Source of the DNA: Trifolium pratense
Taxonomy: Eukaryota > Streptophyta > Magnoliopsida > Fabales > Fabaceae
Direction of reading: 5' to 3'
Assembly: GCF_020283565.1 (NCBI RefSeq)
Contig: NC_060065.1
Coordinates: 27,888,409 to 27,952,408 of the forward strand
DNA: 64,000 bases
Each line of letters starts with the position of its first letter. Position 1 is the first letter of the stretch. A program made the position numbers and the translations under genes. The notes beneath the pieces are model-generated. The model was not told the origin of the DNA. It saw only the letters and a list, made by a program, of their open reading frames with translations, and made no database searches. Positions 266 through 63,669 of this stretch are shown in pieces.

Positions 266-845
266 TGTAACACCCAAACCCATTATTTATATATTTCTAC
301 CTTTAGTAAAATCTTTTTCAAAATACGCAACGGAAAATCACATTTAATTTATTGAATATTGGTTCGAGTATTACACTCCTCTATCAAAATAATACTAATG
401 TAATTAATTAGTAAAAACAGTGTTTATACAAAATAATCATTTCTCAAAATGTATAGTTTTACAAATAAATATCGAAAGTCATAAAGACCCTATAGTCTAA
501 ATACAACCCTTTCCCGTGTCACAATCAGAGCGGAGCTTCATCGACGACTCGACATCGAATACCACAAAATCCTGTAAAATCTGGACCCCCAACGATCCAG
601 CACATAACACATAAAAGAGAGTTAGATAACATACTCAAAATATACAAGTGTAAGTAAATGGTACTTAAACACTTCTTCATAAAAACATGCATAATCATAC
701 ATTATACATATACATCACCATCATTCATGCATATTCATATATCATGCATATACTTCATTTATCACCTAATCAATCATCCACAAAATACACCTAACATATA
801 GTTTCACGTCGTCTCGGACAATACCAAAACATCAACAAATACATT

Positions 846-941
846 GTTCAGATTATGGTCATGACGGACCCTGCGTTGTTCATTTTATAGTCATGACGGA
901 CTCTGCGTTGTTCATTTTATAGTCATGACGGACTCTGCTCC
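846..941. repeat. Tandem repeat, 3 units of 32 bp
   Basis: Units begin GTTCATTTTATAGTCATGAC and end near GGACTCTGCGTT; the first unit differs slightly. Three units occur here and at 6659-6754, but only two in E-outer (62998-63061). Confidence 0.9.
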
Positions 942-1090: not shown

Positions 1091-1395
1091 TCAGGGTATT
1101 TCACCTCCGATATCCTTCTTTATCAAACAATATAGTTCGATATCCTTCTTTATTGGACAAGCCAATATCCCTAAATATTCATGATGCATGCACTCAACAC
1201 TCATGAATATATTCATCAACAATTTTGGCATATAGCCCGTCAACAATAACGTGGAACACTATCCAACGTCCGTCTTTATTAAGATAATCAATACCTTAAT
1301 ATCCGTCTTTATCGAATAACATAATTCGATATACTTCTTTATTAGAATAACATAATTCTAATATCCTTCTTTATTAAGTTGATTAACACCTTAAT
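1091..1395 (-). repeat. Array of seven short hairpins with a constant linker
   Basis: Hairpins lie at about 1091-1110, 1123-1140, 1152-1166, 1278-1300, 1311-1330, 1341-1362 and 1373-1395. Stems differ: ATTGG/CCAAT, ATTAAG/CTTAAT, ATCGAAT/ATTCGAT, ATTAGAAT/ATTCTAAT. The linker between them, ATATCCTTCTTTAT on the plus strand, is nearly constant. One stem has A-C opposition on the plus strand, which is a U-G wobble in the sense RNA. Larger inverted repeats lie between units three and four (around 1175-1213 and 1250-1268). Confidence 0.8.
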
Positions 1396-5674: not shown

Positions 5675-5764
5675 CACATGCAGTTTTATATCATGCCGGA
5701 TCGTCACATGCAGTTTTACATCATGCCGGATCATCACATACAGTTTTACATCATGCCGGATCAT
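5675..5764. repeat. Tandem repeat, 3 units of 30 bp
   Basis: The unit begins CACATGCAGTTTTA and ends ATGCCGGATCRT. E-outer has two units (51932-51991). The reverse complement (ATCCGGCATGATGTAAAACTG) resembles a repeated segment in the LTR of element A near 9460 (ATCCGGCAAGATGTAAAACT). Confidence 0.85.
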
Positions 5765-6064
5765 CAACAATTAGCAAATAAGCATCAATCAACCAAGTTT
5801 AAACTACACAAAGGTTAAACACTAAGCATATACAACTATTATAAACATAGAAGTATAATACTCACACATCTACTCACAAGAAGAATGGATAATCTAATCC
5901 AATTCACACCACTCATAGTTCCTAAATGAACAACATGAATGATTTCACAAAACAAACAACACAAAATTGTTAGACAAACACGACTGACACACAATACTCA
6001 CTTGGTCTGACTGCACAGACCTGCTCTGATCGACACATAACCCACACAGTCCGAAGACAACGGG

Positions 6065-6076
6065 GCTCTGATACCA
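6065..6076 (-). other. Primer-binding site of E-inner (initiator methionine tRNA type)
   Basis: The minus strand reads TGGTATCAGAGC, complementary to the 3' end of plant initiator tRNA-Met, three bases inside the LTR boundary. The E-outer equivalent is at 62447-62458. Confidence 0.92.
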
Positions 6077-6078
6077 AT

Positions 6079-7977
6079 TGTAACACCCAAACCCATTATT
6101 TATATATTTCTACCTTTAGTAAAATCTTTTTCAAAATACGCAACGGAAAATCACATTTAATTTATTGAATATTGGTTCGAGTATTACACTCCTCTATCAA
6201 AATAATACTAATGTAATTAATTAGTAAAAACAGTGTTTATACAAAATAATCATTTCTCAAAATGTATAGTTTTACAAATAAATATCGAAAGTCATAAAGA
6301 CCCTATAGTCTAAATACAACCCTTTCCCGTGTCACAATCAGAGCGGAGCTTCATCGACGACTCGACATCGAATACCACAAAATCCTGTAAAATCTGGACC
6401 CCCAACGATCCAGCACATAACACATAAAAGAGAGTTAGATAACATACTCAAAATATACAAGTGTAAGTAAATGGTACTTAAACACTTCTTCATAAAAACA
6501 TGCATAATCATACATTATACATATACATCACCATCATTCATGCATATTCATATATCATGCATATACTTCATTTATCACCTAATCAATCATCCACAAAATA
6601 CACCTAACATATAGTTTCACGTCGTCTCGGACAATACCAAAACATCAACAAATACATTGTTCAGATTATGGTCATGACGGACCCTGCGTTGTTCATTTTA
6701 TAGTCATGACGGACTCTGCGTTGTTCATTTTATAGTCATGACGGACTCTGCTCCTCACGTACCGATTAACAATCAACATTTACCAAGTATGTGTCAAACA
6801 TCATTTATCATAAATGCACACATAATCCCTAATGCAATCTAATGCTTCACATTCATGCTATGTCCTCTAGACACCTCTAATGCATGTGGTACCATCTTCT
6901 TTATCAGGGTATTTCACCTCCGATATCCTTCTTTATCAAACAATATAGTTCGATATCCTTCTTTATTGGACAAGCCAATATCCCTAAATATTCATGATGC
7001 ATGCACTCAACACTCATGAATATATTCATCAACAATTTTGGCATATAGCCCGTCAACAATAACGTGGAACACTATCCAACGTCCGTCTTTATTAAGATAA
7101 TCAATACCTTAATATCCGTCTTTATCGAATAACATAATTCGATATACTTCTTTATTAGAATAACATAATTCTAATATCCTTCTTTATTAAGTTGATTAAC
7201 ACCTTAATATACTTCATTTATTCTTCATACATGATTAACAATCATTATAAGCATCAACAAGCATCAACAAGCATCAACAATCATCAACAATCATCAACAA
7301 TCATGTAAGAATAAGACACTGATTCAAAACTACATGCAAAGGAAGATCACAGATGAAAAACTGGTGCAAACTGCAGTATTTACGCCCGGGGCAGAAATAT
7401 TTACGCCTGAGGCGGAAATGTTTACGCCTGGGGCGGAAAAACATCTGAAAGGCTGGCTGCTCACTGCTCTGCCGTTTCAGGCGGAAATTACTGGACAACC
7501 TCTCATTGCAACGATCATAACTTGGGCTACGAAAGTCCAATGGAGACGCACATATACTCGTTGGAAAGCTAACAAACAGGGCTACAACTTTTATGTTGAC
7601 CACTAAAACCAGTTCACAACGAAAAGAGGTCAAAATTGCACGTAAAGGTTCAGACCTCATAGATAACAATTTTCTACATTTCTCATTTCAAACTCTAAAC
7701 TCTCAAGATTCTCACATAAACCATTTTTCATGTTATAAACCCCAAATAAGTTCATATTCAAGCAAAACAAACATATCTAAACACAAAAGGACGGTTCATT
7801 TCTCAGATCTACGCCATAAACATCGAAAAAGTAAAGATTGACACTTTTTCATCAAAACTCTCAAGAACACAAAGTTCTTGAGTTTAATCCATTAGAAAGC
7901 TCGTTTTAACCATTATTTCCGTTCATTAATCATGTTACAAGCATGTTAAACATATCAAGAACCTTAGGAACGATTTC
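6079..7977 (-). repeat. E-inner right LTR (5' LTR), first segment
   Basis: Matches 266-2176 of the left LTR apart from one missing 10-bp unit and rare substitutions. It carries the same 32-bp repeat (6659-6754), hairpin array (6904-7208) and GC-rich palindrome cluster. It is interrupted at 7977 by element A and resumes at 48764. Confidence 0.93.
7973..7977. repeat. Target-site duplication ATTTC of element A, left copy
   Basis: ATTTC at 7973-7977 is repeated at 48759-48763. The uninterrupted site is seen in the left LTR of E-inner near 2170 (ACGATTTCCATC). Confidence 0.95.
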
Positions 7978-8188: not shown

Positions 8189-8750
8189 GCAATATCAACA
8201 TGAATAGTATTACAATTCATTTCTTTGAGTTTTGAGTGAGTAGAGCAAGAGCAAAACCATAGAGCTAAGCTAGGGTTTGATCAAGAGAGAAAGCTTGAGC
8301 AAGAGAAGGCTTGGATCATCATCTTTTCTTAAGGTAAGAGATTAGAATTCATGATTCTTGAGTGACAAGGAGGGGGGAGATTGTCTATGTCTCCGTTCCC
8401 GAACTCTCCCACTCAATTTCTTTTAGACTTTTGATAAGCTTTTGTATGTGAGTGTGATGTTCTTCATCATCACTTTGTATGTGTTAATCACTAGCTTGAT
8501 TTCATGATAAATATGTATGTGTTTGGATCATTTTTGTTAAGTTTATGAAAGTTACTTAAAACCCAAGAAATTGGCTTGATTTTGATTGTTAGAGGTATTT
8601 GGATGTTTGGAAGGGATGATTAATGTTCCTTGATACCATATATGTTTGAAATGGCTGTTTATATGAATTTATAACATGTTTGGATGAATTTTTGAGTGGA
8701 ATCAATGTTAAACCGCCTTAGACAACTCAAGAACAGATATTTCTGGTGTA

Positions 8751-8970
8751 GTTCGCTACGGATTCGCTACGGATTCGCTTAGCGAATGAGTTCGCTACCT
8801 GTTCGCTACGGATTCGCTTAGCGAATAAGTTCGCTACGGGTTCGCTATCTGTTCGCCATGTACCTGTAACCCTCTGATGTAGTTCGCTACCTGTTCGCTA
8901 CAGCGAACGTGTTCGCTACGTGTTCGCTACGTGTTCGCTACGGGTTCGCTACGGATTCGCTCAGCGAACA
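8751..8970. repeat. TTCGCTACGGATTCGCTTAGCGAA palindrome cluster in the A LTR
   Basis: GTTCGCTAC words are repeated about 15 times, mixed with inverted TTAGCGAA words. The 3' LTR copy (47265-47495) has one extra 11-bp GTGTTCGCTAC unit, which explains the whole LTR length difference. D has a diverged cluster at the homologous place. Confidence 0.85.
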
Positions 8971-23235: not shown

Positions 23236-24914
23236 TGTTGAGGCAAAATCCACTTTTGATGTTTTAAAGATTACAAACATCTTTAATTATATTTTAAATG
23301 ATTCTGATCATTTTGTTATCTAACAAGTGCTTTTGAGTGGCATAAGATTAATAGATTCTAACAAACCATTTGCAAAGTAAAAATCCTGCAAAGCTGTTTC
23401 AAGACCATTCTAAGAACATTCTCAGCAGACAGACTGCAGCTTTTGTCAAATAAGCACGTTTTGGTATAAGTGCTTTTTAGGTTTTAAAGTCAACTAAGAA
23501 CAAAACAAATAAGCACTTTACAATGGATTTATGGACCAAATCACTACAGGAAATAATCTCTTTTGGGATCAACAACATGTGATGGACTTTAAGATATATG
23601 CTTTTCTAGTCACTTGTCTTGGAGGAAACTATGAGCTTTGATCAAACATAGTATTGGCCATCCAATAAGCTCATCTGATAAGAGATCATGGACCAATCAC
23701 AATGGAACAACCAGAATTATTCTATGAGTTGTAATGGTACTTGCAAAAGGACCATCTTGGAACATTCTTCAATGTGGTGTCATAGAAGTACATTTTGTCT
23801 CATTTGCTCATGTACTATTCCAGCTGGTTTTCTGCTCATGCTAAAGGCTACCTCTGATCATCTCTTAAGCTATTAAACAGCTGCACACCACAAAGGAAGG
23901 AAGGATGAAGGTTCATCACCTTGGCTGTTGCAGGCAAGACAGTTTCAAGACTGTTCTAAGACCAATGCAAGACTGATCTGCACACAGTTTTTTCAAAACC
24001 ATCTCCAACTGTCATAAGCCTTTTTCTGAGCATACAAACGGCTATATCTGATACATGACAGTGGAAGGATGTAAGAAACAACTCATATACACTTGGCAAC
24101 AGCTCATACTTATTTGGATCTTATGGATCAAAGCTAAAAGGAAATCAAGACTGTTCCAAGACTGAACAGAGAATCTGCACATTATGCAGAAATTGTCTGC
24201 TGCATATAGAGCACTGAGTAACAGCTCTATTTTACTCTCTAACTGATATACTTGAAGGCCAAGCTTCAAACTCAAGCAAGCATCTATAAAAGGCAATCAA
24301 GTCCAAGGGAAAGAGCAAGAGTTTCCAAGCAATTCAAGCAATACATATCTCACTAAACCTCTTTAGCTCAAAGTCCTTTTATAGTCACTCTTTTGTAAAT
24401 CTGAGTTCAAATCTCTTTAGAGTGCTTTTCATCTAAGCTTCTCTTTTATAGTGAGTTTGATATTAAGCTTAGAAACAAATCATTCATATTGTAATTGCTC
24501 AAGTCAATACGTGACTATTGATTGAGTGTAGATTGGTCAAGTTGACTAGGAAAGTTCAAAGCTCTAGGAGCTTTGGTAAGTTGTTGATCTTAGGTCAAGA
24601 TCAAGGTGATTGTGTAAGTTTTGGATCTGTAACATTCAAGTGATTCTAGTGGACAAACTCACAGGAGGTGGGGACTGGACGTAACCCAAAGATTAAGGGT
24701 GAACCAGGATAACTCTTTGTGTTTATTCTCTTTCCCTTAAACTTTTATTTTCTGCATCTGTTTTTCTTTACACAGCACAGATCATTCTTAGAACGATCTC
24801 ACTGAGCACAAAATTAATTTTATTACTAACCTTTTAATTTTGTGACTTAAGTTTAAATTTAAAAAGGTTCACAATTCAAACCCCCCCTTTCTTGTGAAAA
24901 ACTTTGCTACTTCA
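23236..24914 (+). repeat. 3' LTR of element F
   Basis: 1679 bp, apparently identical to 13619-15297 line by line. It ends CTACTTCA followed by the CGAAT duplication and the resumed integrase frame of element A. Confidence 0.95.
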
Positions 24915-24919
24915 CGAAT

Positions 24920-26022
24920 GGAAATGGGATAGCATTGCAATGGATTTTGTGGGAGGTTTACCGAAGACCAAGAAAAGTAACGAGGTGATTTGGGTAGTGG
25001 TAGATCGTCTGACGAAGTGTGCTCACTTCATTGCTATTAGGAAAGGTACTTTGGTGCCTAAGTTGGCCGAGATTTATGTGAAGCAGATTGTGAAGCTACA
25101 TGGTATTCCAACAAGTATTATTTCGGATAGAGATCCGAGATTTACTTCTAGATTTTGGGAAAGCTTGCAAGAAGCTTTAGGAACGAAGTTGAGGTTGAGT
25201 TCAGCGTATCACCCTCAGACAGATGGTCAGTCGGAGAGGACGATACAATCCTTAGAGGATTTGTTGAGGGCTTGTGTTTTGGAGCAAAACGTGAATTGGG
25301 ATTCTTGTTTGCCATTGGTAGAGTTTACATACAACAACAGTTACCATTCTAGTATCGGAATGGCACCGTTTGAGGCTTTGTATGGGAGAAGGTGTAGGAC
25401 ACCTCTGTGTTGGTATGAAACTGGAGAAGGTGCAATTCTTGGACCAGAGATTGTACAAGAAACAACAGAGAAGATTCGGATGATTCGTGAGAAGATGAAA
25501 ACGTCTCAGAGTCGACAGAAGAGTTATCATGATAAGAGGAGGAAGGACATTGAATTCCAAGAAGGGGATCATGTATTCCTACGAGTTACATCGACTACTG
25601 GAGTAGGACGTGCGTTGAAGTCGCGGAAGTTGACATCGAGGTTTATTGGACCATTTGAGATTTTGAAGCGAGTTGGGAAAGTTGCGTATAGGATTGCATT
25701 ACCGCCATCATTGGCGAATTTGCACAATGTTTTCCATGTATCACAGTTGCGCAAGTATGTGTCTGATCCGACACACGTGATTGAATCGGACGATGTTCAA
25801 GTGAGGGATGACTTGACCATCGAGACTGTGCCTTTGAGAATCGAAGGGAGAGAAGTGAAGAGGTTGAGAAACAAAGAGATTGCATCCGTGAAAGTCGTGT
25901 GGGGAGGACCGGCTGGTGAGAATGCAACGTGGGAGTTGGAAAGCAAGATGAGAGATTCTTATCCCGATCTGTTTCTAGGTAATTTCGAGGGCGAAATTCT
26001 TTTAAGGGGGGTAGGATTGTAA
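24920..26022 (+). CDS. Element A gag-pol, C-terminal part (integrase core and chromodomain)
   Basis: Continues the A polyprotein in frame after F. The integrase D-D-E core is complete: SIAMDF (about 24940), ISDRDPRF (about 25122) and DGQSERTIQ with its Glu (about 25234). A GPF/Y-like segment SRFIGPFEILKRVGKVAYRIALP follows. The end, about 25840-25970 (VKRLRNKEIASVKVVWGG...ATWELES), has the layout of a chromodomain, which in chromoviruses steers integration towards particular chromatin. The stop lies inside the start of the 3' LTR (TAA in TGTAACG). Upstream in-frame codons from 24904 belong to the F LTR. Confidence 0.93.
26004..26011 (+). other. Polypurine tract of element A
   Basis: AAGGGGGG in CTTTTAAGGGGGGTAGGAT, six bases before the 3' LTR. 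It overlaps the last codons of pol. Confidence 0.85.
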
Positions 26023-31013: not shown

Positions 31014-31791
31014 TGTAACGACCCGATTTTTAGTAAATCGATATTTTATATATTTGCTTATATTTTGGGTTAGTGTTAAATATTTATTTACGCGACCTAT
31101 AATTATTTATCGCGAACATAAGTTTGTGAGCGAAACCTTTGTCGTGTTAGTGGGCTTGGGCGTGTGATAGAAGCTTAATGGGCTTAGGCTATTGGGCTTG
31201 GTTCATGACCATTGGAGAGTAGTATAAGTAACCAAGTCAAAACCATGAATAGTATCACAATTCATTTTTTCATGAGAAGTTGAGGTTTGTAAGCTTAGAA
31301 GCAAAGCAAGAACCCTAGGAGAGCAAGTAGAAGAACTCGAGCAAGGAGAAGAGTTTAGAGGCCAAGAATCATCGTTCAATCTAAGGTGAGAGTGGTTAAG
31401 CATAAGCTTGGGTGATCCAAGAGAGGGGAGGTGTCTAGCCTCCATTCCTGAACTCTCTCATCCAATTTCTTTGGGGTTTGGGTGAAGTTTCTTTATCATA
31501 AACATGTCTTTTCATCTTAGTATGCTTAATGAACATCTAGGAGGGAATATGTATATGTTTGATGATGGTTTTGCATGTTTATGCAACTTTGCTTATTTTG
31601 CAAGAAATTGACATGATTTTGTATGTGTGATGTGTTTTGGTGTTTTTGATTGTTAATTCATGTATATATGTATGGTATATACATGATTGATCACTTGTTA
31701 TGCATTTATAACATGTTTTGATGTATTTTTGAGTTGATTTGAGGTTAAACCGCCTTAGATAACTCAAGAACAGATATTCTGTTCTGGTGTG

Positions 31792-31916
31792 GTTCGCTAA
31801 GCGACCAAGAGTTCGCTGCAGCGAACAGGTTCGCTGAAGCTCGCCAAAGCTCGCCATGAGCAGGTGACTTACTGGTGTGGTTCGCCAAGTCTCGCTAAGC
31901 CCTCGCTTAGCGAAGG
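31792..31916. repeat. TTCGCT / AGCGAA palindrome cluster in D
   Basis: GTTCGCTGCAGCGAAC, TTCGCTAAGCGA and CTCGCTTAGCGAAGG words. The cluster follows the same flanking phrase (AACTCAAGAACAGATAT) as in the A LTR, so the position is homologous but the repeat units have diverged. Confidence 0.75.
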
Positions 31917-32066
31917 CCTCTGTGACAGCAATTTTTGCTGATGTTTGTAAAGTGTGTGTATCCATGTATTTGGTTTCGTTTTGGTTTGGAATTATTATAT
32001 GTTTAATAATTGTGTTGTGTGATGGCATTTATATAAAATGTCAAAGAAGTATATGTATGTTTATAT

Positions 32067-32293
32067 ATCGGATTGTCCGATAAAGAAGAATATCAGTTTG
32101 TCTGATAAAGAAGTTTAATGGATTATGTTATCCATGTAGTGAGCAGTAGCTTCGTGCTAAGTGATTATCATATGTTTGGTAAATGCATGACATTCATAAA
32201 TTCATGCATTATTTAGGGATATCAGATTCGTCTGATAAAGAAGGATATTGGACTTGTCCAATAAAGAAGGATATCAATGGTAAGTTCCTTGAT
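32067..32293 (+). repeat. Hairpin array in D with constant linker
   Basis: Stems ATCGGA/TCCGAT (32067-32081), ATCAG/CTGAT (32092-32106), ATGGAT/ATCCAT (32118-32135), AATGCATGA/TCATGCATT (32182-32210), ATCAGA/TCTGAT with loop TTCG (32221-32236), ATTGGA/TCCAAT (32247-32262) and ATCAA/TTGAT (32273-32293). Most are followed by AAAGAAG or AAAGAAGGATAT. Confidence 0.8.
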
Positions 32294-33019
32294 AAAGAAG
32301 ATGGTACCACATGCATTAGTCGTGTCTAGGTTGGCATGACATTGAATGTTTGGCATTAGTCGCATTTGAGTAAATGTGCAATTATGTGTTATGTGTTATG
32401 TGAGTTCTTTGTGTTGTCCGAAACGACGTGAAACTATCTGGTTGTGTATTTGTGAGTATGTGTTATTTGGTGTATTGCTTATTGAGGCATGTGTGTGAGT
32501 TAGTATTACGTGATAGGTTGAATATAGGTGCGTTTCTATATTCGTATGTATGTGATTATGTTTACTAACTCTCTACCTAATTGTTATGTGCTGGACCTTT
32601 GGGGGTTCAGGTATTCAGGTCGTGGTTTCGATCGAGCTTTAGCTGTAGATCGTTTTGGTGTGGAGCACTTTTGGTGAGGAGCTAGTGTAGGCTACCTTTG
32701 TATAGTTTTGTTAAGTTAGTTTGGTTGTGATGTATATTAGTGCTCTGGTATGTTGTAACATCGAGTCGGGGATCGTTTGTATTCCGTCGTATATCGATGT
32801 GAACATCTTAACTTATGTTTTATGTAAATGAAATATCTTTTGAACTACTTTGTTCATTGCTTTGAAAATCCTTTATTTAATGTTTTCCGCTGCGACGTTT
32901 CGTGTCATGTGCACGGTCGTTTTATAAAAATGTTTTCCCGTAGCGCTCCGGCTACTTATCTTTAAAAAGTTTTTAAGATCACGTTTTTAAGGGTAGTTAG
33001 TTCGGGGTGTTACAGGCGC

Positions 33020-33102: not shown

Positions 33103-36100
33103 ATGCCCAATACTCGTAACTCCGAGGAACCATTACAACAACCTATACCCGAAATAGAACGTTTTATTCATTTTAAACGTCGAATCCGCGAACTTCAAAA
33201 CCTCTTACCCATGGCTAACAACGCACGTCCTCTTAGGGACTACGCCGTTCCTTCCGAAGAAGAACCGCATTCGAGCATCGCGCCCCCTAACATCGAAGCA
33301 AGAAACTTCGAGTTGAAACCCGCTTTGTTGCAAATCGTGCAACAAAACCAGTTCTCTGGTTCCCCTACGGAGGATCCTAACCTCCATTTATCAGTGTTTG
33401 TGCAGTACGCAGACACAATCAAAGCCAATGGTGTCGAACCCGAAGCTATATGACTCCGTCTTTTCCCGTTTTCTTTAAGAGATAGAGCTAGAGCTTGGCT
33501 CCAAGCTCTACCTTCGAACTCCATCACTACATGGAACGAATTGAAGAAACAATTCTTGGCTAGATACTTCCCGCCAAGTAAGACAGCTATGCTAAGAGCC
33601 CAAATCAACGGATTTAGGCAAAAAGAAGGTGAATCACTTTTCGAAGCATGGGAAAGATACAAGGACATGATGAGACTCTGTCCACACCACGGTCTAGAAC
33701 AATGGCTCATAATCCATACCTTCTATAATGGGCTGCTTTATAACACAAGACTAACCATAGATGCAGCCGCCGGTGGAGCACTGATGGATAAACCATACCA
33801 AGAAGCCACCCAGCTTATAGAAAACATGGCCCAAAACCATTATCAATGGGGAAGCGAACGCGCTGCTATAGAGAAATTCCAAACAAAAGGTGGTATATAC
33901 GAAGTAAGTGGCATAGACCATGTCAACGCCAAAGTAGAAGCCCTTACTCAAAAGTTGGAGAGTTTAACCCTGCCAACCACATCCACCGTAGCTGCAATCC
34001 AACCAAATTGCGAAGTATGTGGAATCCCTGGTCACGTACCATCTGATTGTTCTATATTAGCCGGACTCGACCAAGTGCATTATGCCGCTCTGTCCAATAA
34101 CTATAATCCTGGCTATAAGAACCATCCTAACTTATCTTATAGGAACAATAATACACTCAATCCTACTCAAGCCCCTCCAGGTTACCAAAAGCAAGGAGCA
34201 CAACCAGCCGCACCTTATCCACCAAGGAAGTCTAACTTCGATATTATGATGGAAAAATTCTTAAACCAAAACATTCACACTAATGAATTGGTAAAACAAT
34301 TAGCAACTAAGGTAGATGCCCTAGCTACCCATAACAAAATGCTAGAAACACAGATTTCCCAGGTGGCACAACAACAAGCAACTATTGCCGCCCCAGCCGG
34401 CACATTCCCAGGACAACCCGAGCCTAACCCAAAAGGGCATGCGAATGCCATACATGCTATAATCACAAGAAGTGGAAAGGAGTTGCAAGGACCACCAGAT
34501 TCTGGAGTAAAAAACTCAGAAAGCGCTAAGATAACCAACAAGGAAGCCGAGAGTAGTGAACCACCAAAAGAGCCTGAGAGAGAATCCGAAAATCCCCAAT
34601 TAGGAGATAAGGAGGGGACAACTAAAAAGCTTACGCCTGCTGCACCACCTGTTTACAAAACACCTATCCCTTTTCCTCAAAGATTAGCTAAGACTAAAAC
34701 TGAAGGACATTTTAAGAAATTTGTAGAACTTCTGAAGCAACTAAACATAACCATACCTTTCTCAGAAGCAATAACACAAATGCCTACATACTCAAAATTT
34801 CTTAAAGAAATTCTATCAAACAAAAGGAAATTAGATGAGGATAGTACAGTCGCACTTACCGAAGAATGCAGTGCCATATTCCAAAACAAAATGCCACCTA
34901 AACTTAAGGACCCAGGAAGTTTTTCAATTCCCTGCGTAATAGGCAACTACGTAATAGATAAGGCACTATGCGACTTAGGAGCAAGTGTTAGTCTCATGCC
35001 CCTCTCAATCAGCAAAAAGTTAAAATTGAGTGATCTAAAACCTACTAGGATGTCGCTTCAACTAGCAGACCGTTCAGTTAAATACCCTGTAGGTATCCTA
35101 GAAAATATTCCAGTAAAAATCGGCCAACTCTATATCCCTACCGACTTTGTAGTAATGGACATTACGGAAGATTCATGTATTCCAATCCTTTTAGGAAGAC
35201 CATTCCTAGCCACTGCAGGAGCAATAATAGACGTTAAGCGAGGAAAACTTACACTAGAAGTAGGCGAAGAGAAAATTGAATTTATTCTTTCTAAATTCAT
35301 GCAAACACCAGCTGTCGAAGACACTTGCTATGCCATAGACATAATTGATGAGTGTGTTAAGGAAATAGAGAAAGAACTACCTCAAGAAATAGAAATTCTA
35401 GAACCTCCTATAGATGAAGGCCAAGCTTCACTAAAACTTAGTGTAGAAGATAACTTGAGAGAGGAACCTCCATTCGAACCCAATCTCACGCCGGAACCTA
35501 AACAATCTTCGCTAGAACTCAAACCGCTACCCAAGAACCTTAGGTACGAATATCTAGACGAAAATCTGAGTCGCCCAGTCATAGTGAACGCTGACCTAGA
35601 CCCGATAGAAACAGAAAAATTATTAGATGTCTTAAGAAAATATCCTTCTGCCTTAGGTTACAACATCTCAGACTTAAAGGGAATTAGTCCCTCTGTGTGC
35701 ATGCACCGAATCTTATTAGAGGAAGATGCAAAGGCTTCGAGAGAACACCAAAGAAGGATAAACCCTATCTTAAGCGAAGTAGTTAAGAAAGAAGTGCTGA
35801 AACTCTTAGACGCAGGCATAATATATCAAATATCTGATAGCAAGTGGGTCAGCCCTGTTCATGTAGTACCAAAGAAGGGAGGACTAACAGTTGTCAAAAA
35901 CGAGAAGGGAGAATCTGTACCTAAGCGAGTGGAATCAGGATATAGAATGTGCATCGACTATAGAAAATTAAACAAAGTCACTCGGAAAGATCATTTTCCT
36001 TTACCGTTCATTGACCAAATGCTCGAGCGTCTAGCTAAACACTCATATTTTTGTTATTTAGACGGATACTCTGGATTTTTCCAAATCCCGATACACCCCG

Positions 36101-38472
36101 ACGACCAAGAAAAGACCACCTTCACATGCCCTGTAGGTACCTTTGCCTATAGACGTATGCCTTTTGGATTGTGTAACGCCCCTGCAACCTTCCAACGATG
36201 TATGATGGCGATATTCGCAGATTTTATAAACAATATCATGGAAGTATTCATGGATGATTTTTCTGTGTATGGGGAAAGTTTTGAAGGATGTCTCGCTAAT
36301 TTAGAATTGGTATTACAAAGATGTGTTAAAGTCAACCTAGTACTCAATTGGGAGAAATGTCATTTCATGGTTCGTGAAGGACTAGTATTAGGACATATAG
36401 TTTCTAATAGAGGAATAGAAGTGGACAAAGCTAAAATTGAAGTAATAGAAAACCTTCAACCTCCAAAAACCATTAGGGACATAAGAAGTTTTTTAGGACA
36501 CGCAGGTTTTTATCGTAGATTCATAAAAGACTTCTCTAAAATAACTAAACCCTTAACAGGCCTTTTAATGAAAGACGCCGAATTCATCTTCGACGACAAA
36601 TGTATGGAAGCATTCCAACTCCTCAAGCAAGCCTTGATTTCCGCACCTATAATGCAACCTCCTGATTGGAGTGAACCTTTCGAAATCATGTGTGACGCCA
36701 GCGATTACGCCGTAGGAGCCGTTCTAGGACAAAGAAAGGATAAAAAGCTACACGCTATCTATTATGCAAGTAGAACCCTAGACGCGGCACAACTAAACTA
36801 TGCTACCACCGAAAAAGAACTCTTAGCTGTCGTATTTGCAATCGACAAATTCCGCTCATATTTGGTGGGATCTAAAATCATCATTTACACCGATCACGCA
36901 GCAATCCGATATCTTATGAGTAAAAAAGATGCAAAACCAAGACTGCTAAGATGGATACTGCTGTTACAAGAGTTCGACCTAGAAATCAAAGATAAGAAAG
37001 GCATAGAAAATACGGTAGCAGACCACCTATCTAGACTAGATAATATTAGGAAAGAACATATCCCAATTAACGATGACTTCCCTTGTGATAGACTGATCGC
37101 TCAGTTAGATCTCTCCTTCGGCGAAGAAAAAGCTGGCAAGGAAGAAACAGAAACCGCTCTAGTCCAAACTACAGCCCCCTGGTATGCTGATTATGTTAAC
37201 TACATAGCTGCCGGAATAATACCTCCTGAATTATCTTATCAACAAAAGAAGAAATTCTTCCATAATGTTAAACAATTCTATTGGGACGAACCCCTTTTAT
37301 TTAAAAGAGGCGTCGACGGAATTTTTCGTCGATGCATCCCCGAAGAAGAAATGGAGAGTGTCATTACCCATTGTCATTCCTCACCTTATGGAGGGCACGC
37401 AAGCACTTCTAAAACCGCTTATAAAATTCTACAAGCCGGCCTCTATTGGCCTAACCTTTTTAAAGATGTTCACACGTTTATTGCAAAATGTGACCAATGT
37501 CAGCGTACGGGAAACATCTCAAGAAGAAACGAAATGCCACTCACAAACATCCTTGAAGTAGAAATCTTCGACGTTTGGGGTATAGATTTTATGGGACCCT
37601 TTCCATCCTCCATGGGTAACAAGTTCATACTCGTAGCAGTAGACTATGTGTCAAAATGGATAGAGGCAATCGCCTCTCCCACTAATGATACACGAGTAGT
37701 CGTTAAGTTGTTTAAGAAAATTATTTTCCCTAGATTTGGAGTCCCCCGGTTAGTCATAAGCGACGGCGGCTCTCACTTTATATCCAAACAGTTAGAAAAC
37801 CTATTAAAAAAATATGGAGTGAGACATAGAATTGCAACCCCATATCACCCACAAACAAGTGGCCAAGTAGAGATCTCTAATAGAGAAATCAAAACAATCC
37901 TAGAAAAAACCGTATCCACTTCTAGAAAGGATTGGGCCACCAAACTGGATGATGCACTTTGGGCATATCGAACCGCCTATAAAACACCCATAGGGACAAC
38001 TCCATTTAAACTCATCTACGGAAAATCTTGCCATTTGCCGGTAGAATTAGAACATAAGGCCTATTGGGCAGTTAAAGCCCTTAATATGGATTACCAAGCT
38101 GCCGGAAGAAAAAGGATTTTAGAATTACATGAACTAGAGGAACTTAGACTAGATGCTTACGAAAATGCCAAGATTTACAAAGAAAGAACTAAAAAATGGC
38201 ATGACGGGCATATATTGAGAAAAGAATTCAAGGAAGGGGAACTTGTACTTCTCTTCAACTCTAGGCTAAGATTATTTCCTGGAAAACTACGTTCCAGATG
38301 GTCAGGACCATTTAAAATAACTAGAGTTTTTAAAAATGGGGCCGTAGAAGTCAAGAACGGATCAAACGAGACATTCATTGTTAATGGGCAACGTTTAAAA
38401 CATTACTATTTCCCTAACGATAGAGATCACTACTCAAGTTTAAAGTTAGATGATCTCCCACTTGAAACCTAA
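33103..38472 (+). pseudogene. Element C gag-pol polyprotein with one in-frame stop
   Basis: Starts MPNTRNSEEPLQQ. A TGA at 33451-33453 interrupts Gag; the same frame is open on both sides (1789 codons plus stop in all). Related elements have Arg here, and CGA to TGA is the change expected from methylated-C deamination. Domains: Gag ([16 protein letters not shown]), CCHC knuckle [14 protein letters not shown] (about aa 302), protease [11 protein letters not shown] (about 622), [12 protein letters not shown] (about 950) and FMDDFSVYG (about 1049), RNase [14 protein letters not shown] (about 1196), integrase zinc module [10 protein letters not shown]...CDQCQRTG (about 1422-1465), core [17 protein letters not shown] and [11 protein letters not shown] (about 1493-1590). 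Otherwise the frame is intact; a residual ORF could start at 33541. Confidence 0.93.
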
Positions 38473-62460: not shown

Positions 62461-63210
62461 TGTAACACCCAAACCCATTATTTATATATTTCTACCTTTA
62501 GTAAAATCTTTTTCAAAATACGCAACGGAAATCACATTTAATTTATTGAATATCGGTTCGAGTATTACACTCCTCTACCAAAATAATACTAATGTAGTTA
62601 ATTAGTAAAAATAGTGTTTATACAAATCTTTGAATCAAATAATGTATTTATTGATTATACAAAACAACCTAGACAATAGACTTTATATACAATATAAAAC
62701 CCTTTCCCGTGTCACAATCAGAGCGGAGCTTCACCGACGACTCGACATCGAATACCACAAAATCCTGTAAAATCTGGACCCCCAACGGTCCAGTACATAA
62801 CACATAAAAGAGAGTTAGATAACATACTCAAAATATACAAGTGTAAGTAAAGGGTACTTAAACACTTCTTCATAAAACATGCATAATCATACATTATACA
62901 TATACTTCATTTATCACATAATCAATCATCCACAAAATACACCAAACATATAGTTTCACGTCGTCTCGGACAATACCAAAACATCGACAAATACATTGTT
63001 CAGATTATGGTCATGACGGACCCTGCGTTGTTCATTTTATAGTCATGACGGACTCTGCTCCTCACATACGGATTAACAATCAACATTTACCAAGTATGTG
63101 TCAAACATCATTTATTATAAAATGCACACATAATCCCTAATGCAATCTAATGCTTCACATTCATGTTATGTCCTCTAGACACCTCTAATGCATGTGGTAC
63201 CATCGTCTTT

Positions 63211-63487
63211 ATCAGAGTATTTCACCTCCGATATCCGTCTTTATCAAACAAATATAGTTCGATATCCTTCTTTATTGGACAAGCCAATATCCCTAAATAT
63301 TCATGATGCATGCACTCAAAACTCATGAATATATTCATCAACAATTTTGGCATATAGCCCGTCAACAATAACGTGGAACACTATCCAACGTCCGTCTTTA
63401 TTAAGATAATCAATACCTTAATATCCGTCTTTATTAGAATAACATAATTCTAATATCCTTCTTTATTAAGTTGATTAACACCTTAAT
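63211..63487 (-). repeat. Hairpin array of the E-outer LTR
   Basis: Same architecture as 1091-1395 but without the ATCGAAT/ATTCGAT hairpin. The first hairpin, ATCAGAG...CTCCGAT on plus, pairs over seven positions with one wobble in the sense RNA, better than its E-inner counterpart. Confidence 0.78.
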
Positions 63488-63669
63488 ATACTTCATTTAT
63501 ACTTCATACATGATTAACAATCAATTAACGATTAGCAATGAGCATTATAAGCATCAACAATCATCAACAAGCATCAACAATCATCAACAAGCATCAACAA
63601 TCATGTAAGAATAAGACACTAATTGAAAATACATGCAAAGGAAGATAGCAGATCAAAAATTGGTGAAAT

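Follow-up and report, generated by a model that had tools for sequence, protein, structure and literature searches.

The long terminal repeat (LTR) of a non-coding retrotransposon of Trifolium pratense, here called E, carries an array of short hairpins whose stems change in sequence and keep their pairing, and which are joined by a nearly constant purine linker. Conserved pairing in this array is well supported by comparison of three LTR families, E, F and G. From the sequence we infer, with a probability of roughly 0.4, that the array functions as a multivalent recognition domain of the packaging type, present only in unspliced RNA. It offers a clear instance of covariation within an LTR, usually seen as promoter and terminator only.

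The window, i.e. the whole stretch of 64,000 nucleotides that was analysed, contains the 3' LTR of E at 266-2628, with TGTAAC/GTTACA ends, and a matching second LTR at 6079-7977, which is the 5' LTR and is split by a Gag-Pol element, P. The PBS-like sequence TGGTATCAGAGC (6065-6076, minus strand), which we take to be a primer binding site of the tRNA-iMet type, follows the 5' LTR in the sense direction and a purine tract adjoins the 3' LTR upstream, and therefore the minus strand is the sense strand of E. Its LTR of 2363 bp and its interior of about 3.4 kb, in which an ORF scan found no reading frame of at least 150 aa, are the long LTRs and the several kilobases of non-coding interior of a LARD-like element. 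The array recurs in the second LTR at 6902-7209 and in a related E copy at 63.4 kb (63210-63488), both on the minus strand, the latter without the hairpin e2 described below. The genome searched has 90 contigs and 413.6 Mb. Of 40 scored matches to the 63.4-kb copy, 17 are identical to it across 392 bases, that copy counted, and young copies are thus possible.

Seven hairpins of one kind, which we call class I, lie at 1089-1396 on the minus strand in groups of four and three. The first-pass annotation had described seven inverted repeats following one another; all seven are present, but the row is broken by a gap of about 110 nt between the first four and the last three. The arms that it quoted (ATTGG/CCAAT, ATTAAG/CTTAAT and ATCGAAT/ATTCGAT among them) are correct, and the linker is ATAAAGAAGGATAT or one of its near variants AAAGACGG, AAAGAAGTA and AAAGAAGAT. 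In sense order, and all on the minus strand, the first group consists of e0 (1372-1396; TATTAAG/CTTAATA), e1 (1340-1363; TATTAGAAT/ATTCTAATA), e2 (1310-1331; TATCGAAT/ATTCGATA) and e3 (1277-1301; TATTAAG/CTTAATA with further pairs, including one G.U). The gap contains a different hairpin, e4 (1249-1269), with a bulged T and the arms ACGT-GGA/TCC-ACGT, which in F read ATGT-GGA/TCC-ACAT. The second group follows with e5 (1151-1167; TATTGG/CCAATA), e6 (1121-1142; TATCGAAC/GTTTGATA, with one G.U in the sense RNA) and e7 (1089-1112; TATCGG/CTGATA, with one G.U in the sense RNA and an A.C one position further in). Directly 3' of the array stands the anchor GGTACCACATGCATTAG (1064-1080, minus), whose 17 letters are shared without change by E, F and G and by the LTR families P and Q, and after it a hairpin with the arms GTGTC/GACAT (1047-1061, minus), which in F and G pairs with other letters. 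The single mismatch read earlier as a U-G wobble proves to be more than one, as a mid-stem G.U occurs in two of the seven hairpins (1121-1142 and 1089-1112) and 1277-1301 has one further in.

Arrays of the same kind were found in the LTR families F and G, so that the array is confined neither to the E family nor to these coordinates. The G array in the window (32024-32340, plus strand) has other stems and loops with the same linker, anchor and post-anchor hairpin. Family F came to light adjoining a G copy in a search with the G array, and is represented by the 40 best-scored matches of 1703 candidates. The arrays of E, F and G all end in the same 17-letter anchor, the last hairpins before the anchor and the one after it correspond, and seven linker letters are invariant or nearly so across 16 hairpin units of the three families. 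These three are a sample of the class-I families; further ones may exist, because each genome search scored the best 40 candidates. The set of 97 arrays includes overlapping loci and the window copies entered twice (also as L001 and L002). A hairpin model, R1, was built from the hairpins of E, F and G, so that its matches in these families are circular and only its absence elsewhere is informative; it had no match at an E-value of 1 or better in ten random 5-kb stretches or in three P loci. A single anchor-bearing LTR (L202, family Q) was present in the ten random stretches, and it has no class-I hairpin. A scan of viral_contigs with the linker gave single matches, which were taken for chance, and these loci (L078-L197) were excluded from all counts.

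The evidence for selection on pairing comes from three class-I families of one genome, with hairpins related by duplication. Across the 16 hairpins the three variable pairs are C-G in eight and U-A in eight; A-U in eight, G-C in six and G.U in two; and G-C in ten and A-U in six. None of these is unpaired in any hairpin, and the next pair inwards is unpaired in 4 of the 16. Paired cells make up 96.4% of the alignment, against 84.9% after shuffling and at most 52.7% when the arms are slid; cells changed on both sides number 23 against 8.8, and the covariation score is 0.525 against 0.283, neither of which was reached by any of 500 shuffles. The number of pairs with any both-sided change showed no excess in the 16 hairpins (4 against 3.1; reached by 165 of 500), and the pair types were fewer than in the shuffles (6 against 8.7). 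Aligning the hairpins with their loops gave the same result, with 99.1% of cells paired and five gapped cells set aside. At pairs 4-6, seven of the eight possible stem words are present, each with its own partner, so the agreement between the arms cannot be put down to a small number of old divergences. Each hairpin's own arms pair in 16 of 16 cases (14 of them with Watson-Crick pairs throughout), which none of 200,000 permutations reached; arms taken from different hairpins pair in 109 of 240 combinations when G.U is allowed and in 24 of 240 when it is not.

Comparison of matching hairpins between families points in the same direction. Between E and F, 11 stem letters differ and 4 pairs have changed on both arms (equalled by 111 of 20,000 random placements); between E and G, 13 letters and 5 pairs (98 of 20,000); and between F and G, 14 letters and 6 pairs (51 of 20,000). 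No pair lost its pairing in these pairwise comparisons, which were made on hand-drawn stems excluding the inner pair of e7, an A.C in part of the E copies. The changing stems with preserved pairing noted at the outset are therefore real, beyond what shared descent or base composition would give, and neither independent evolution of the arms nor a lack of covariation, the results named beforehand as speaking against the claim, was seen in E, F and G. Conserved stem-loops, a mark of packaging signals, are thus found as covariation over three families, and RNA as the selected form is suggested.

The array also holds more perfect stems than its composition predicts. At 1086-1400 of E there are 5 Watson-Crick stems of at least 6 bp, against 1.03 expected from dinucleotide shuffles; F has 5 against 1.04 and G 7 against 0.84, and 0 of 300 shuffles reached the count in each family. 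When G.U pairs are allowed the contrast shrinks, to 9 against 5.8 in E (reached by 8 of 300 shuffles), with 13 of 300 in F and 26 of 300 in G. No excess of Watson-Crick stems of at least 6 bp was observed in P (1 against 0.61 in shuffles) or Q (2 against 1.04). Folding energy is moderately low, with sense z-values of -1.5 to -2.9 in six 120-nt windows covering LTR nt 1201-1620 of E, and it does not favour the sense strand, as antisense folding gives lower values in two of the six (-4.6 and -3.2). The excess in the E array is one of pairing pattern and not of stability.

The mismatches within the stems bear on whether RNA or DNA is the molecule under selection. In 29 forms typed by hand, and counting consensus or shared forms, the internal pairs that are not Watson-Crick comprise 11 G.U, 1 A.C and 5 others; with related forms merged there are 8 distinct G.U sites against 1 A.C (one-sided binomial about 0.02, uncorrected), where the sites were chosen by us and the merging to eight is our own reading. 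Single-copy variants show no lean (about 4 G.U against about 3 A.C), as is expected of changes after insertion. The first-pass proposal of RNA rather than DNA therefore holds in part: shared forms lean to G.U, but no such lean is seen in single-copy variants and the sense strand has no advantage in folding energy. The lean in shared forms does no more than suggest that selection acts on the sense RNA.

Class-I hairpins accompany different kinds of element. Most G arrays are 3.1-3.2 kb apart and the G LTR is 2.1 kb, which leaves an interior of about 1 kb, and some F arrays are 4.3 kb apart. One F pair, 6.6 kb apart (L218), flanks two ORFs with a stop between them that encode Gag with zinc knuckles, protease, reverse transcriptase, RNase H and integrase, and this coding part is identical to that of P at 678 of 803 residues (84%) over the part compared. 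Both P and L218 have a zinc-knuckle Gag, protease, reverse transcriptase and RNase H followed by integrase, as in Ty3/gypsy elements, in separate ORFs. At an E-value of 0.001, Pfam gave SH3_Tf2-1 with no chromodomain match at 24898-26019 of the window and in the 567-aa ORF of L218; we presume that these elements are what is called Tekay. The array thus occurs beside coding as well as non-coding interiors. P itself lies inside the 5' LTR of E (7978-48755, with ATTTC on both sides), is broken by further elements and, as an LTR stretch, has 23 identical copies among 40 scored. It is without class-I hairpins, having neither a stem excess nor a match to the hairpin model, and the same is true of Q (40 scored genome matches), in which repeats of GATGTAAAACTG at L202:1380-1900 take the place that class-I hairpins occupy in E. 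Diverged class-I hairpins in P or Q were considered and rejected, as both lack the excess stems and the model matches. Because the autonomous P, with its 23 identical copies among 40 scored, does without them, not every Tekay-like element here needs class-I hairpins in order to be packaged.

The LTRs of E, F, G and P are best conserved in four blocks: the LTR start; a donor-like motif around nt 335-375, which reads AGGTRAGAG or AGGTATGAG; the anchor and the hairpin after it; and CTAACTCTC ... TTGGGGGTYCAG. Their mean identity is 0.60-0.74, against 0.2-0.5 in most other windows. In E, the sequence resembling a 5' splice site is CAGGTAAGAG (2286-2295, minus; about LTR nt 335), with similar sequences at about nt 337 in F, 375 in G and 354 in P, and a block resembling a branch point and 3' splice site, CTAACTCTC ... 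GGGGGTCCAG, lies at 581-625 on the minus strand. In each of the four LTR families aligned, the array position therefore has a donor-like motif on one side and a branch/acceptor-like one on the other. The Q stretch that was fetched contains the branch-like string; the donor-like motif and the exact acceptor string were not found in it. The array stands about 0.7-0.8 kb upstream of the PBS. If these blocks are splice sites, the array would be part of a leader intron and present only in unspliced RNA.

We propose that the array forms a domain of several hairpins within the portion of the LTR that is transcribed, and that the hairpins serve as scaffolds whose stem letters are free provided that they pair. 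The hairpins would keep the purine linkers (AAAGAAGGA) unpaired and at regular intervals, so that the linkers form a multivalent protein site. Given stems that vary and yet pair, and linkers of fixed purine sequence, it is simplest to suppose that a protein reads the linkers and that the hairpins space and expose them. The likely reader would be the zinc-knuckle Gag of Tekay-like Gag-Pol elements, choosing unspliced genomic RNA for packaging. Non-coding E, and with it G and most F copies, which to judge by size would be non-coding too, would retain the array because a Gag made elsewhere has to pick them; Gag is a natural candidate because E keeps the array. Selection on RNA, a position between a working donor and a working acceptor, and binding by Gag are the three steps that we infer here. 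More doubtful is the wider proposal that plant Ty3/gypsy elements have a packaging signal which is both modular and multivalent: hairpin-plus-purine-linker units in the LTR, gained and lost whole, whose stems drift and thereby let adjacent hairpins fold locally, and which are common to coding elements and to non-coding ones that compete for the same Gag.

The main rival to packaging is a control of splicing. On this view the array is part of a leader intron, and its linkers, exposed by the hairpins on either side, are bound by SR-type proteins, which thereby adjust how much RNA is spliced mRNA and how much stays unspliced as genomic RNA. AAGAAG-type purine words are known splicing enhancers. 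The donor-like and branch/acceptor-like blocks are conserved around the array position in E, F, G and P, and this reading fits the layout equally well. Non-coding E, which has no evident need of a spliced mRNA, still keeps the array, however, and P has the sites without class-I hairpins, and we consider control of splicing on its own rather unlikely; packaging and splicing control could be one system. It is improbable to a greater degree that the hairpins are a polyadenylation or small-RNA element. Some linkers read AATAAA, a polyadenylation signal, at the hairpin ends, but its first letter is A or G according to the stem partner, which indicates that the pairing and not the signal is kept. 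For small-RNA precursors cut by Dicer, the stems, at 6-11 bp, are short, and the weak MIR2593 match at 1155-1242 (minus; 21.2 bits against a cut-off of 96.2) is at chance level; very little speaks for either role.

The two remaining alternatives dispense with a function of the RNA. Short tandem inverted repeats are prone to templated correction, and strand switching during reverse transcription or DNA replication might match the arms as repeats are duplicated, with no selection on structure; the differing unit number among copies, as with e2 at 63.4 kb, is in keeping with this. Such a process should leave Watson-Crick arms or unbiased mismatches, whereas among the internal mismatches that are shared G.U prevails in the sense RNA (8 sites to 1), and it would not account for linkers conserved as sequence; we regard it as unlikely. 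A function at the level of DNA, through cruciforms or a protein reading inverted repeats in the LTR, appears less probable again. The pairing exists in DNA too, and in two windows the antisense strand folds no less strongly than the sense strand. The lean to G.U opposes such a function, and if a protein read paired half-sites one would expect constant stem letters, whereas here the stems vary freely and the spacers are fixed.

Plant Ty3/gypsy LTRs and untranslated regions carry tandem repeats, and the array resembles these as short tandem units inside a plant LTR; it differs in conserving the pairing of the arms and a fixed linker and not the sequence of the whole unit. To our knowledge, little has been established about the marks by which the RNA of plant LTR retrotransposons is chosen for packaging, or about the way in which non-coding elements make use of the proteins of others. 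A repeated and easily recognised RNA unit, found in non-coding elements and beside a Gag-Pol gene, would make the question testable. Rfam 15 has no family at gathering score over either array, literal sequence strings were not found in the open full-text literature, and the earlier view that no element of this kind has been described agrees with that literature, subscription journals lying outside its scope. The closest likeness, by anatomy only, is to the retroviral Psi leader with its hairpins and single-stranded purine stretches: in the passages covered, purine stretches near a stem-loop are redundant Gag sites in MPMV (PMC7674771), and the packaging sequences of HIV-1 and MoMuLV lie between a splice site and gag (PMC7599994). 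Unlike Psi, the array, known here from its sequence alone, consists of many near-equal repeated units with differing stem letters, and it lies in the LTR, about 0.7-0.8 kb before the PBS and hence farther away than in the retroviruses compared. In barley, the passages covered describe BARE2 as Gag-less, retaining packaging signals and packaged in particles (PMC3735527), a partnership with BARE1 similar to the one proposed for E; these elements belong to the Copia superfamily, and an array of this kind does not appear in those passages.

Several other repeats in the window were recorded. A second short hairpin unit occurs in the E LTR at 844-938 (minus), AGTC CGTCAT GACT or GGTC CGTCAT GACC with a TATAAAATGAAC-like linker, and about 300 nt past the PBS, at 5675-5766 (minus), ATC CGGCAT GAT followed by GTAAAACTG is present three times; the stems of both are only 3-4 bp, and P and Q carry units resembling these CGTCAT/CGGCAT hairpins. 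At 1574-1636 there are three 21-nt repeats with CGCC..GGCG inverted repeats whose middle letters vary, and folding windows around them gave z = -3.3 in sense and down to -4.7 in antisense. Two other LTRs contain TTCGCTACGG-type tandem repeats with TTCGCT..AGCGAA inverted repeats (8750-8961 and 31780-31910). Finally, an Rfam match to snoR71 (47.4 bits against a cut-off of 40) lies at 33589-33695 (minus), inside a Gag-Pol ORF of the opposite strand (33454-38469).
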